Below, piece by piece: positions 8,629 to 15,131 of a stretch of DNA of 64,000 bases. The position numbers and the translations under genes are program-made. The DNA is from Nitrospiraceae bacterium (GTDB taxonomy: Bacteria; Nitrospirota; Nitrospiria; Nitrospirales; Nitrospiraceae). The stretch covers positions 1-64,000 of the forward strand of contig JABFSG010000016.1 of NCBI GenBank assembly GCA_013140715.1, given 5' to 3'. The notes under the pieces are model-generated. The model was not told the origin of the DNA. It saw nothing but the letters and a program-made list of their open reading frames with translations, and did not search any database. Numbering within the stretch: the first letter of the stretch is position 1; each line of letters opens with the position of its first letter.

Positions 8629-9500
8629 TTACACCAAAGCTGAGGGAGTGAACTCCTGTGTCATCTGAGCCCCGGTTTGATAGTTGTGAATGAACTCCTG
8701 GGGTGCCACATCCCCAATGGTGCTGTGCGTCCGCTCCTCATTGTATTTCCGCCGCCACGCTTCAATCACCAGCTGCGCTTCCTGTAACGTCAGAAACCAG
8801 TGCTCGTTCAAACATTCATCTCGAAACTTGCCATTGAAGCTCTCGATAAACGCGTTCTGCACCGGCTTTCCCGGCTGAATAAAATGCAGGTGCACACCAT
8901 GCTGGGCGGCCCCCAGGCATCCAAGGCCGTCCCGGCGAATTCGGGACCGTTGTCCAGCATCAAGGTCTCTGGCAGCGGGCGAGTGAGAAACAGCCGATCC
9001 AGAATCCGACACACGCGCGCCCCACCAATCGACACATCCACCTCAAGCACCGGCACCTCTTTCGAACAGGGATCAGTCATCGTCAAGCACTTGAACCGCC
9101 GGCCCGTGACGAGCCGATCATGGACGAAGTCCATCGCCTAGCAGCGCCCAGGCTGCGTGGGTTTCGGCAAGGCGACCCGAGGCACCGCCGCGGCCTTCTT
9201 CCGTCGTCGCCGCCATAACGACAGCCGTTCGTCTCGATAATAGAGCCGTTCAACCTTCTTATGGTTCACAGCCCATCCCTCTCGGCGCAACTGCACATAA
9301 ATCCGGGGACACCCATAGCGCCGCTTACTCTCGGCAATTTCCCGGATCCGTGTCCGCAGAGCCGCATCGTCCTGGCGCCGACTGCGATACCGCAGTGTGT
9401 TCCGATCCAGGGCCAGTACGCGGCACACCCGACGCTGACTGAGCCCAAAGCGCTCGGCCATCCACTGAGCGGCCGCTCGCTTCGCCTTGGGCGCTACCAG
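8629..9500 (-). pseudogene. IS3-family transposase OrfB (DDE integrase), broken
   Basis: Read with corrections this gives the whole OrfB: an HTH-like start (SQRRVCRVLALDRNTLRYRS), then the rve integrase core with [17 protein letters not shown] and the downstream [20 protein letters not shown] that holds the catalytic Glu. A TAG at 9138-9140 interrupts it where family members have tryptophan just before MDFVHDR. About 220 bases further on, near 8908-8914, a run of G shifts the frame after LDAW. The C-terminal part (8629 to about 8905) continues intact to TAA. Two separate lesions make loss of function almost certain. Confidence 0.88.
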
Positions 9501-9760
9501 TTTTTTGCGGTGACCGCTTTCAGCGCCTGCATGTCCAGCACTTGCTCCGCCACCATCTGCTTCAATCGCCGGTTTTCGTCTTCCAGCTGGCGGAGCTTCT
9601 TCACGTCGCGGACTTCCAGTCCCGCATACTTGGTTCGCCACTTATAAAACGTTGCGTCCGAAATGCCGTGCTTGCGGCAGAGCTCTGGGCCCCCGAACCC
9701 TGGCTGGGCATCCTTGAGTACGGCAATGATTTATTCCTCCGTGTGTCGTTTCCTGGTCAT
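9494..9760 (-). pseudogene. IS3-family OrfA, nonsense mutated
   Basis: From ATG at 9760 the frame reads MTRKRHTEE, then a TAA stop at 9731-9733, where close relatives have glutamine. Beyond the stop the same frame gives a complete OrfA with a helix-turn-helix (ELCRKHGISDATFYKWRTKY) and leucine-zipper-like helix (LRQLEDENRRLKQMVAEQ), ending at TAG 9494-9496. Just before the end lies A AAA AAC (9501-9506 plus C on the minus strand), the expected slippery site for the -1 frameshift that makes the OrfAB fusion. Confidence 0.85.
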
Positions 9761-10908: not shown

Positions 10909-11421
10909 TTATTGGTGGAGATGTTTCATCGCAGCAGCGCAGAGTAGGATCAAGAAACCTATCCAAAGCGCAGCCTGTTGGAACGGAATCGCTTCGTAGG
11001 ACTCTTCTTCCCCTTCTTCTGCGTCATCGGACTTGAAGACCATCGTGTAGAGAAAGAGCGTGAGAAGACAGAGGACGAGAAACAATTTGACAAAAAAGAC
11101 GGTCAGGTATTTGGCATGGTGTTGAATCCCGCTCCCCGTTTGAGCGGTGATAAGCTGATTGACGTAGTGGACATTGATACCGCCGGTAAACAATAGAACC
11201 AGGAGGAGAATACCTGCGACTTTCTTGTAATGTTGATAAAAGGCATCGGTAATCGGCTTGATCTGTTCCTTCGCAACCGCCTGTTTCAGCCCAGGGGTCA
11301 CAGCTATGACGAGAAATGCGAGTCCGCCGATCCAGATGACCGCCGATACCAAATGGAGCCAATGATTGACGATCGGAATCAGTGTACTAAAGTCGGTGGC
11401 GAGGCTTTGAGGCACGTCCAT
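10909..11421 (-). CDS. CopD-like integral membrane protein
   Basis: A 170-residue protein with four strongly hydrophobic segments (about residues 16-44, 68-87, 106-128 and 150-163). The first contains HWLHLVSAVIWIGGLAF, which resembles the haem- or copper-binding first helix of CopD and related b-type membrane proteins; a second His pair (QHHAKY) starts the third segment and HLHQ ends the protein. CopD-family members are linked to copper handling, while similar four-helix proteins bind haem b. Neither can be chosen from sequence alone. It is the gene downstream of the radical-SAM gene on the same strand, separated by an intergenic hairpin element. Confidence 0.7.
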   Translation of the reverse strand: MDVPQSLATDFSTLIPIVNHWLHLVSAVIWIGGLAFLVIAVTPGLKQAVAKEQIKPITDAFYQHYKKVAGILLLVLLFTGGINVHYVNQLITAQTGSGIQHHAKYLTVFFVKLFLVLCLLTLFLYTMVFKSDDAEEGEEESYEAIPFQQAALWIGFLILLCAAAMKHLHQ

Positions 11422-11432
11422 GCTTAGGTCGA

Positions 11433-11521
11433 TGGTACAGGGTGAGGGATAGGGAGTGCGGGAGCAGAAGAAACATAAATTCTCGGAACTAGTGTTTCTA
11501 CCCCGTTACCCCTTACCAGTT
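11433..11521. repeat. Degenerate-word hairpin element
   Basis: The left arm (11433-11458, iterated GGGTGAGGGATAGGGAG-like words) and the right arm (11498-11521, ACCCCGTTACCCCTTACC-like words) are roughly complementary. The right arm contains the stop codon and last five codons of the radical-SAM gene. One of a family of such elements in this window. Confidence 0.55.
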
Positions 11522-12909
11522 ACGTCAAAATTGAAGACTGGCGCGTCGTTCCCGAATCGTTTCTTGCGGAGCTCTTCCATCAATTCAATGGTAATCACGG
11601 GAATATTATTCTCGCGTGCGTGTTTTTCAACGCCCTTTTTCACCATGGCGCGCAAGAAATAGGGAATCCGGTTGAGTCTGGTTTCTGAGTCCTCATTCCA
11701 CGCTACCTGGCTTTCTTCCGGTGTATTAAATGCGACTTTGATCTTTTCTCCCCCCTTCGGGGTATAGAGACACCATTGATCTTCATCCAGCCAATCGCCG
11801 TGATCGACGTAGGGACGTGCACGGCAACCTCCGCAGATGTCTGTGTACTCGCAATCACCGCATTTACCTTTCAGTTGCGGATAGCGGAAGGAATTGAAGA
11901 CGTCGGACTTTTCCCACAGATCGACAAAACTTGCCTCTCGGATGTTCCCGGCAGACAACGGCATGTAGGGACAAGGGGTCAGCTCGCCATTAGGAGTCAC
12001 GCGCGCGTAATTCGTGCCAGCCAGACATCCGCCGCCCATATAGCCCGTCGCTTTAGTAATAGGGGAGTTTGGATCTTTTTCGTACGCGAGCCGTTTGAAA
12101 TGCGGCGCACAGCGAGCCCGGACGAGCATACCCTTGTAATTATCCTGACAGTTGACCAGGTAGCCAAGAACCTCCTCGTACTGGGCCGGGGTGATATCGG
12201 TTAATTCCTCGCCGCGACCGGTGCAGACCATGAAGAAAACATTGAGCACCTTGGCGCCAAGCTGATGCGCCCAATCGATCACTTCTGGCAATTCCTGATA
12301 ATTCATCGGTTGCGCGCTGAAATGTACTTGAAAGGCCAATCCATTCCGCTTGCAGGCCTCGATACCGGCGAGTGCCGCTTCCCATGCACCAGGCACACCT
12401 CGGAAGCGGTTATGCTTGACGGGATCCAGTGAGTCGATGCTGATACCCATGCCCATCACGCCGATTTCGACAAGTTCCTTTGCCATCCGGTCATCGATCA
12501 ACATACCGTTGGTCCCAAACACCACCATGAAGCCGAGCTTCACAGCGTAACGCGCGATGTCGAGGATGTCAGGACGGACGAGCGGTTCGCCGCCCGTGAT
12601 CACCAGAAGACAACCCCTATTGACCTCGGCAATCTGATCGATGAGTCTGTAGCATTCTTCGGTCGAGAGTTCGTCGTCCCCGCCAGCCGACTTCGTCGTC
12701 GCATCGAGATAACAATGGTCGCACTTGAGATTGCAGCGCTTTGTGAGGTTGAGTGCAATGAGATAGGGCTTGAAGTCATCGACCGTTCGGCCATCATAGG
12801 GCCCTTCGCCTTGAGGGGTAGGCGTGAGAAATTGCGTGACCTGCTGTTGAAAAGCCCCGATCACTCCGCTGAGTAAGGGACCGTTGAAGATTGGTAGCGA
12901 TTTACCCAT
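11506..12909 (-). CDS. Radical SAM/SPASM protein with C-terminal PCP_red module
   Basis: The 467-residue protein has the radical-SAM cluster motif CNLKCDHC (about residues 58-65) and the GGEP motif (near 108). A SPASM-type region follows with cysteines at GGGCLAG, TPCPYMP and CGDCEYTDICGGCRAR, so a second Fe-S cluster is expected. The overall pattern is that of NirJ/AhbC/AhbD-type haem-modifying enzymes. The last 60 residues (NRIPYFLRAMVKKGVEKHAR and onward) match the PCP_red helical module first described in light-independent protochlorophyllide reductase. Two genes downstream of the stress protein that carries three such modules, it may work with it. A haem d1-like or other tetrapyrrole substrate is inference. 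Confidence 0.85.
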   Translation of the reverse strand: MGKSLPIFNGPLLSGVIGAFQQQVTQFLTPTPQGEGPYDGRTVDDFKPYLIALNLTKRCNLKCDHCYLDATTKSAGGDDELSTEECYRLIDQIAEVNRGCLLVITGGEPLVRPDILDIARYAVKLGFMVVFGTNGMLIDDRMAKELVEIGVMGMGISIDSLDPVKHNRFRGVPGAWEAALAGIEACKRNGLAFQVHFSAQPMNYQELPEVIDWAHQLGAKVLNVFFMVCTGRGEELTDITPAQYEEVLGYLVNCQDNYKGMLVRARCAPHFKRLAYEKDPNSPITKATGYMGGGCLAGTNYARVTPNGELTPCPYMPLSAGNIREASFVDLWEKSDVFNSFRYPQLKGKCGDCEYTDICGGCRARPYVDHGDWLDEDQWCLYTPKGGEKIKVAFNTPEESQVAWNEDSETRLNRIPYFLRAMVKKGVEKHARENNIPVITIELMEELRKKRFGNDAPVFNFDVTGKG

Positions 12910-12918
12910 GGTCTAGAA

Positions 12919-13018
12919 GAAATGTGAAACTCTAAATTAAGGACGTAGAATGGGTGGTTCTGGAAAGTCGGCTGTCCGGTCAATTTCACATTTCACATTC
13001 ATCATTCAAACTTTCAAC
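12919..13018. repeat. Degenerate-word hairpin element
   Basis: GAAATGTGAAA (12919-12929) faces ATTTCACATTTCACATTCAT and further CATT/CAAACTTTCAA words at 12983-13018. The arms are complementary over 11 bases. The right arm reaches into the stop codon of the universal-stress/PCP_red gene (13014-13016). Confidence 0.6.
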
Positions 13019-15131
13019 GGGACGATTTCGTCTTTCCGGTCAGGTTGGCAATCATGTCCTTCAAGTTGCCGGTCTTCATGGCTTCCGCCATATAATCCTT
13101 GGCCTGCTCGATACCCTCGTGCGCCACTTCAGCCGTGATGACCGTCACACCGATCTTATCGGCATGTTTTTCGATCAGGGCACGGGTACAGTCTCGCATA
13201 AACCCTTCAGGCGCCCGTTCAAGCCGTGATTGCGCCTCCGGCGTCCAGGCATAAGGAGAGACAGGGGCTGGTTCTTCCGCATGGCCATTCCCATTTCCAT
13301 GACCATTCCCCAGGGGGGCGGTCACGCCAGTGGCGAGGTTCGTTGCAGCAGAAACGGTAGCCAGTGCTTCGGTCGAGGCGCCGGTTCCCTTATTCGCAAA
13401 GATGGGGGTGTAATCCTCCGAGGCTGCTTCCTGAATCATCGGCGCTGCATACTCCAGCGTGATTGTGGTCATGCCGAGTTTACGGGCAGTCTTCTCGATT
13501 TTAGCCTTGGCGCGCCGGCGTTGGAACCCGGCCGGCACCGCGCGGATTCCTTCTTTGGCATCTTTGGTCCATTGCATGGGAACGTCATCGTAGGCCAGGT
13601 CGGTTTCGAGGGCTCCTTCGGCATGTGCCGCTGCATCGAAAAGCGTTTTGTCAACCAGTTTGAAGCGGTCGCCTCCGGCGGCGCAGACGGGGCATTTCAC
13701 AGGCGTTTCGCCCTTTCCGATATAACCGCAGCCGTCGCAGATGAAGTAGTTCTGGGTCATCCGGTCCAGGTAGGCTTGCGTGGCGGCGCTGACCGTCGGT
13801 TTTTCTTCCACGACCTCGGTCATCATGCCGCTGAGCGTCGAACCCATGAGATCCTTCAAGACAGACTCGTCCGCCTGCATCTTGTCTCGGTTAATACCAG
13901 CGGCATCCAAGTTGCCCCCGAGGGCATGCATCGCTTCCATGGCACCCTTGGGCAAGATGTGCCCGACAGCCGTATCGACCACGGTATTACTGATGATGGT
14001 GTGACCCTTTTCGATGGCATAACGATGGATGGCTGTTTTCGCCACCCCTCTGGCAAATATCGGGATCTTTTCCATTCGGCGGAGGGCTTCTTCAGTCCAG
14101 GCGATTGTGTATTCCGCCAACGTATCGATCGGTGGGACATATTTCCTGTTCGACACGAGGATATTGCAGGGTGCAGACCGTAAGAGATTCTCCGTATTGC
14201 TGCCGATATCCATATCCTCGTCACTATGCACGCCGATCCGCCCGACGATCAGTAGTGCCGGGATATCCTTCCGCACATATTGGATGATCTTTTCGAAGGC
14301 CTTGCCGTCCAGCAGAGTAGTCTTGACGTCGGTTTGCTCAGCCTGAGCGATTTCACGGCAGATATCGAGATGCGATTGGTAGATCTTCGCGAGGCCGCTA
14401 TCGATGATTTCCTCATGGAGCTTTTCCTGCTCCTTGAATCGGAACACTTTACCCGCTTCCTCGTTGAGAACACCTGAGATACTGTGAAAGGCGGCATAAT
14501 GGAAATAGGGATCGAAGGCCGAGATGGCCTCCACCGGCATGTTGAAGGCCTTCCCCAGTGCTAGGCCGGTCATAAGTCCGCCGAAGGAATAGGGGCTGCC
14601 GTCCACTGCTACCACGATTCTCCCGCCGGTCATAGGCTGGGTTTGCTTGATGATCAGCATATCCGAACTCCGCACGCGACGAAGCACGCGCTCGGTGTTA
14701 CTGCCGATCACACTGTCTTTGACTGCGCCGACACCCAAGGCGCCCATGATCACCAGATCGTAGGCATTGGTATTGATGTCTTCGGCCAGCACCTTCCAAT
14801 TCCGGCCTTCGAGCGAACGACGCTCGATCGGCAGGTTGTTTTCCGCGCATTTCTTGTCGACATAGTCGAGGTAGGAATCGGTGATGATCTGGAGACCACG
14901 GGTAATCAGCGAATCGTGGATTTGGCGCTGCCGGTCGAGTTCTTTCTCATCGTGGTACTCTTCGGGTAAGCCCGCTTCCATCTGTTTGAAGCGCTTATCA
15001 TGCATTTTGGCTGCATAGACGTGGCTGCCCACGATCTTCGAGCCGAACGCCTTGGCAAAGTGAACGCCGACGTCGACGGCTGTATTGGAATGGTCGGAAT
15101 TATCGACCGGAACATAGATCGTCTTATACAT
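13014..15131 (-). CDS. Tandem universal stress protein fused to rubredoxin-like and PCP_red modules
   Basis: The 705-residue protein has two UspA-like domains (about 1-160 and 168-325; second one with VAVDGSPYSFGG and the nucleotide-binding GSNTENLLRSAPCNILV). A PCP_red-like helical module follows (TEEALRRMEKIPIFARGVAK, about 345-400). Then comes a rubredoxin-type zinc or iron knuckle (CDGCGYIGKGETPVKCPVC, about 470), and two more PCP_red modules (about 520-570 and 640-690). Between them lies a Gly/His-rich linker (GNGHGNGNGHAEE). UspA domains bind ATP or are stress-induced; the PCP_red module is known from protochlorophyllide reductase, but no photosynthesis genes are here. GGAG lies nine bases before the ATG. 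It probably shares a function with the downstream radical-SAM gene, perhaps in redox or tetrapyrrole handling; this is inference. Confidence 0.85.
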   Translation of the reverse strand: MYKTIYVPVDNSDHSNTAVDVGVHFAKAFGSKIVGSHVYAAKMHDKRFKQMEAGLPEEYHDEKELDRQRQIHDSLITRGLQIITDSYLDYVDKKCAENNLPIERRSLEGRNWKVLAEDINTNAYDLVIMGALGVGAVKDSVIGSNTERVLRRVRSSDMLIIKQTQPMTGGRIVVAVDGSPYSFGGLMTGLALGKAFNMPVEAISAFDPYFHYAAFHSISGVLNEEAGKVFRFKEQEKLHEEIIDSGLAKIYQSHLDICREIAQAEQTDVKTTLLDGKAFEKIIQYVRKDIPALLIVGRIGVHSDEDMDIGSNTENLLRSAPCNILVSNRKYVPPIDTLAEYTIAWTEEALRRMEKIPIFARGVAKTAIHRYAIEKGHTIISNTVVDTAVGHILPKGAMEAMHALGGNLDAAGINRDKMQADESVLKDLMGSTLSGMMTEVVEEKPTVSAATQAYLDRMTQNYFICDGCGYIGKGETPVKCPVCAAGGDRFKLVDKTLFDAAAHAEGALETDLAYDDVPMQWTKDAKEGIRAVPAGFQRRRAKAKIEKTARKLGMTTITLEYAAPMIQEAASEDYTPIFANKGTGASTEALATVSAATNLATGVTAPLGNGHGNGNGHAEEPAPVSPYAWTPEAQSRLERAPEGFMRDCTRALIEKHADKIGVTVITAEVAHEGIEQAKDYMAEAMKTGNLKDMIANLTGKTKSSR

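Follow-up and report, generated by a model that had tools for sequence, protein, structure and literature searches.

The PCP_red domain owes its name to chlorophyll synthesis (protochlorophyllide reductase), and its presence in a Nitrospiraceae bacterium, on the tail of a universal stress protein (USP) and again on the radical-SAM protein encoded next to it, raises the question of what such a module does there. The DNA analysed here, a stretch of 64,000 nucleotides (the window), carries three close genes on its minus strand: that of the USP fusion protein (15131 to 13014), that of the radical-SAM protein, which we call rSAM-PCP (12909 to 11506), and that of a membrane protein (11421 to 10909). 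A literature search on PCP_red in Nitrospira, with PCP_red sought under its Pfam name, found nothing, and in the papers searched the gene pair is apparently undescribed.

Architecture of the gene pair

The fusion protein (13014..15131, minus strand; open reading frame and Pfam) is 705 amino acids long, and the order originally predicted for it, UspA-UspA-PCP_red-rubredoxin knuckle-PCP_red-PCP_red, was recovered by Pfam both module by module and in sequence. Usp (PF00582; E 5e-31) matches two stretches, the first domain at residues 1–155 (14667..15131; Pfam, alignment, AF2 and Foldseek) and the second at about 170–330 (14142..14624; Pfam, alignment and AF2). PCP_red (PF08369; E 4e-32) matches three, module 1 at residues 345–388 (13968..14099), module 2 at 13452..13571 and module 3 at 13125..13247, and the copies scored one by one give 52, 39.6 and 39.2 bits, all above the gathering cut-off of 32.5. 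The knuckle (RUBY_RBDX, residues 464–491, 13659..13742; Pfam E 4e-06, 26.7 bits against a cut-off of 26.5) is of the rubrerythrin-type rubredoxin kind, and its cysteines 465, 468, 480 and 483 form two CxxC pairs that are unchanged in 31 sequences. With identities of 80–95% across the family where measured, and with the knuckle cysteines invariant, chance is excluded as the source of the module assignment and order.

The two Usp domains were compared in an alignment of 22 sequences. The ATP motif of the first reads G130-x2-G133-x9-G143-S144, with G130, G133 and G143 invariant, and that of the second G297-x2-G300-x9-G310-S311, with G297, G300, G310 and S311 invariant; one serine of these motifs is nearly invariant. 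The helical insert of the first domain holds the invariant residues H37, H44, M51 and H72, the insert of the second H211, H239 and H254, and in this alignment no cysteine is invariant in either USP half. An AF2 model was usable for these halves and poor for the linkers and the first PCP_red, and Foldseek matches the USP part to the tandem USPs Rv2623 (E 6e-15) and UspE. The fusion shares fold and ATP motif with these proteins and with TTHA0350, but differs from them in its His/Met-bearing helical inserts, its C-terminal PCP_red and rubredoxin modules and its fixed gene partner.

NirJ and NirJ2 belong to haem d1 biosynthesis and AhbD is a haem b synthase, and it is to these enzymes that the partner, rSAM-PCP (11506..12909, minus strand; open reading frame and Pfam), comes closest among curated families. 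Its 467 residues match Radical_SAM (E 1e-25) and SPASM (3e-10) and end in PCP_red (residues 404–448, 11566..11700; E 1e-14), the last at 54.5 bits against 32.5, which confirms the terminal module that had been predicted. NirJ2 (TIGR04055) is the best-scoring curated model at 329 bits, followed by AhbD (TIGR04545) at 315, both over the full length and both short of an equivalog cut-off of 500, whereas PqqE scores 112 bits; the best solved-structure match by sequence is nonetheless PqqE. BchB (TIGR01278) reached 65 bits of 490 over the C-terminal module only, short of a full-length match. The cysteines of rSAM-PCP are arranged as C59xxxC63xxC66 and C350xxC353x5C359x20C380, and CX3CX2C and CX2CX5CX20-21C both occur in every PCP_red-bearing radical-SAM sequence examined; the latter is the motif described for NirJ (PMC10548856).

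In a tree of 38 sequences, all from Nitrospirota, the PCP_red-bearing radical-SAM proteins form one group with moderate support (82/88) next to an AhbD-like group, beside which an AhbD-like protein with its own PCP_red stands as a separate case. The likeness to AhbD thus spans radical SAM, a SPASM-like C-terminal cluster motif, full-length similarity and an adjoining clade, and that to NirJ and NirJ2 the best curated score and both cysteine motifs; rSAM-PCP nevertheless differs from all of them in its sub-threshold scores and its extra C-terminal PCP_red, and in having a regular USP partner, and its surroundings showed none of the nir genes for haem d1. All curated equivalog cut-offs lie above its scores (329 of 500 at best), so that no family name gives away its reaction, and sequence comparison makes rSAM-PCP a relative of AhbD and NirJ that probably works as they do. 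An AF2 model of rSAM-PCP, made to learn whether PCP_red lies over the active site, was poor (mean pLDDT 56) and was set aside.

The third gene (10909..11421, minus strand) encodes a 170-residue membrane protein with conserved W21, H23, W30 and K112, and across the class it likewise comes after rSAM-PCP. CopD and DUF4149 outscore PF03653 (HemJ, UPF0093) for this protein, yet in the window they stay below their own cut-offs; PF03653 itself matches weakly, in 3 of 16 members, with a best E of 0.016, which lends no clear support to a HemJ identity. Some families encode an extra PCP_red protein of about 330 residues between the rSAM-PCP and membrane-protein genes, and its orthologue in the window genome lies elsewhere, on contig C3. 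In most of the Nitrospiraceae sampled, a B12-binding radical-SAM gene (slr0320-like, 445 of 775 bits) is the upstream neighbour; because it is absent at the window we do not count it in the cluster. Downstream of the cluster, at 8629–9641 on the minus strand, transposase-like open frames of integrase type, apparently split, are, judged by eye, likely the remnant of an insertion element.

Spread of the pair and its respiratory setting

Of 60 genomes of the family, 57 have the fusion, as a single copy, among them all 47 of good quality; the named records with it range from Nitrospira moscoviensis to many metagenome-assembled genomes. On all 69 named contigs of sufficient length, the rSAM-PCP gene follows the fusion gene, often touching or overlapping its stop codon, and a USP gene adjoins rSAM-PCP in 40 of 43 loci. 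Outside the class, the Nitrospirota families f12, f16, f18, f26 and f27 also have USP and rSAM-PCP pairs. The PCP_red tail of the USP varies. The window protein has three copies; f5 and f8 have five, together with three knuckles; f12 and f18 have two, one being weak in the case of f18; f26 and f27 have none, and from these last two families it follows that the constant unit is a tandem USP with rSAM-PCP. The pair is no oddity; it is core to the Nitrospira family and recurs across the Nitrospirota. PCP_red was thus found by profile in both proteins and the linkage of the pair holds in several families, the two points on which the original prediction had staked itself, while its setting of a "nitrifier-type cell" is too narrow for a pair found in many families of the phylum.

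The canonical haem-copper oxidases are missing from most Nitrospira genomes, and respiration is thought to proceed through poorly understood bd-like oxidases (PMC6606698). Of 118 Nitrospirota genomes, 38 have rSAM-PCP together with a bd-like oxidase and 76 have neither, with two genomes having only the one and two only the other; in at least one of these four, G120, the discordance is a contig edge. Fisher's test gives 5e-26 by genome and 1e-9 by genus, values inflated by the shared ancestry that the test ignores, and the same pattern is seen when genera are compared within f18 and within f27. Gene order adds a link: in G103 the genes upstream include those of a bd-like oxidase and cytochrome c, and in G155 a single strand carries rSAM-PCP, USP, a bd-like oxidase, two cytochromes c, a NarJ-like chaperone, a molybdopterin subunit, an Fe-S subunit and EB_dh, which puts the pair at the head of an operon for a bd-like oxidase and NXR-type subunits.

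Haem genes are neighbours as well. HemY follows the pair in L065 (TIGR00562, 304 bits, cut-off 97.85), L185 and L186, the USP/PCP genes in L064 and the radical-SAM gene in f18; in other bacteria ahbD is found near hemY, hemH and hemQ (PMC10548856). Over the 58 genomes of the class, HemY scores above cut-off in 53, HemH in 47, the HemQ/Cld family in 49 and HemN in 4, which makes the coproporphyrin-dependent route the rule and means that another enzyme already makes haem b there. The ferrochelatase family PF00762 was not found in G000, G037 and the f2 genomes G116 and G130, the last a single-contig genome, though HemY and HemQ-family proteins are present in them. That rSAM-PCP supplies a missing last step of haem b synthesis was considered as a sole explanation and rejected, given HemQ-family proteins in 49 of the 58; rSAM-PCP adds to the coproporphyrin-dependent route and is no simple replacement for it.

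PCP_red on porphyrin enzymes

Solved copies of PCP_red are the C-terminus of BchB and the free-standing Asr4154. In BchB/ChlB (PDB 2kru, 3aek) the domain belongs to an enzyme acting on protochlorophyllide, whereas here it has no nitrogenase-type domain with it, stands in tandem and is fused to USP, rubredoxin, radical SAM or HemQ. Four loci of the window genome encode five proteins with PCP_red, which together give 11 matches, or 12 if a weak copy is counted; BchB is not among these proteins, and in these bacteria PCP_red is not a photosynthesis marker. A single protein may hold up to five copies. The signature from 214 distinct copies, W-x3-A-x2-R-L-x3-P-x-F-x-R ... A-x3-G-x3-(I/V)-(T/S), is conserved at W (100%), P (98%), A (96%), F (91%) and R (88%), and those 214 copies show no conserved Cys, His or Met, which makes a metal-ligand domain unlikely.

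What PCP_red is fused to elsewhere is more telling. Families f6 and f7 have HemQ-type proteins (PF06778, E about 1e-57) with an N-terminal PCP_red above the gathering score (L224:2645-3592, L225:1801-2745, L226:7904-8998, L227:2083-3042); compared with the PDB, such a protein matches coproheme decarboxylase best (E 2e-23), and in L224 and L225 a HemY gene adjoins. At L218:993-2378 an AhbD-like radical-SAM protein ends in PCP_red and reaches 488 bits against the AhbD cut-off of 500 (TIGR04545). The N-terminal PCP_red on PF06778 proteins of f6, f7 and f19 is the point of likeness to HemQ/ChdC; the catalytic domain of the window proteins is a different one. These fusions to porphyrin enzymes are the strongest evidence for the tetrapyrrole role that had been proposed from the window, and they suggest PCP_red as a general porphyrin-enzyme module. 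In f19 (L178:7036-8058, L179:6551-7675, L228:2454-3836) the PF06778 domain joined to PCP_red is divergent: where HemQ-type proteins have "YP", inspection by eye finds R-P or K-P, and this protein may possibly bind haem and be non-decarboxylating.

Further PCP_red genes lie apart from the pair. A zinc-ribbon PCP_red protein (window genome C2:35441-35734, L009; relatives L193, L201, L202, L060 and L187) is encoded, in the relatives, directly after an Mrp/NUBPL-type P-loop Fe-S carrier. Another, with a zinc ribbon and two PCP_red copies, lies between DUF420 and bd-like oxidase genes (window genome C36:95000-114000, L011; also L195 and L198), and a methyltransferase near it has BchU as its best curated model (80 of 276 bits). 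G169 packs several of these loci into about 10 kb, and in L180:6442-8443 and L181:6004-8000 a B12-binding radical-SAM gene is directly upstream of a zinc-ribbon PCP_red protein.

Proposed function and alternatives

The most likely task of the pair is to make, tailor or regulate haem for the unusual respiratory chain of these bacteria, because relatives fuse PCP_red to haem-making enzymes. Put more precisely, and with evenly balanced confidence, we read it as a haem (tetrapyrrole) enzyme with a porphyrin-handling PCP_red and an ATP-binding stress-protein partner, together serving respiration. Domains, conservation, linkage, the PCP_red–haem enzyme fusions and the co-distribution and linkage with bd-like oxidases are observed; the substrate, the chemistry, a carrier or sensor role and binding between the two proteins are inferred. 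rSAM-PCP would probably act on the propionate side chains of a coproheme-type tetrapyrrole, with no need for O2, and its C-terminal PCP_red would hold or cover the macrocycle. The partner may be seen as a tandem ATP-binding USP that gained PCP_red modules and a rubredoxin iron site, and it probably carries the tetrapyrrole or tunes the enzyme to ATP and to redox or oxygen state; the product would pass to the bd-like oxidase/cytochrome c/NXR-type chain. Against a haem function stand the PqqE structure match, the missed equivalog cut-offs and the making of haem b by other means.

SPASM enzymes often modify peptides, and the PqqE match, along with a USP paired in nearly all loci even where it lacks PCP_red (L204-L207), could indicate a peptide or protein maturase with the USP or another protein as substrate, as in other SPASM systems. 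We consider this improbable, since NirJ2 and AhbD score far above PqqE, PCP_red and HemY tie the pair to haem, and the USP halves lack an invariant cysteine. PCP_red might alternatively be a docking module, multi-copy proteins serving as scaffolds that gather haem, Fe-S and oxidase-assembly proteins with the tetrapyrrole itself untouched. The abundance of copies per genome and per protein fits this, as do the neighbouring Mrp-type carriers, DUF420 and bd-like oxidase and the lack of conserved Cys, His or Met; PCP_red is also found, however, on the single enzymes HemQ, AhbD-like and BchB, whose sole common feature is a porphyrin substrate, and its strictly conserved Trp and Arg would be as apt for binding a ligand as for contact with another protein, so that we regard docking as doubtful.

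A somewhat better, still tentative, case can be made for a regulatory pair in which the USP senses low O2 or energy and switches haem b synthesis between the peroxide-dependent HemQ and the O2-independent radical-SAM routes. Both Usp domains keep the ATP motif, most of the class has HemQ-family proteins, and low O2 strongly raises four UspA proteins of N. marina, next to clusters that are induced (PMC8115632), a response that fits without being tied to the fusion gene; regulation alone, however, leaves the tie to the bd-like oxidase and the many PCP_red copies unexplained.

The haem-enzyme reading could be extended to all Nitrospirota PCP_red proteins, namely the USP fusion, rSAM-PCP, a four-PCP_red protein and the two zinc-ribbon proteins beside the Mrp ATPase and the bd-like oxidase, as one undescribed pathway by which nitrite oxidisers make a modified haem and deliver it to the bd-like oxidases and cytochromes that need it, an extension that we think unlikely as a whole. 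Nitrospira drive nitrite oxidation, and a phylum-wide gene pair that tracks the bd-like oxidases and bears a domain of porphyrin enzymes offers a concrete lead on how those oxidases are built.
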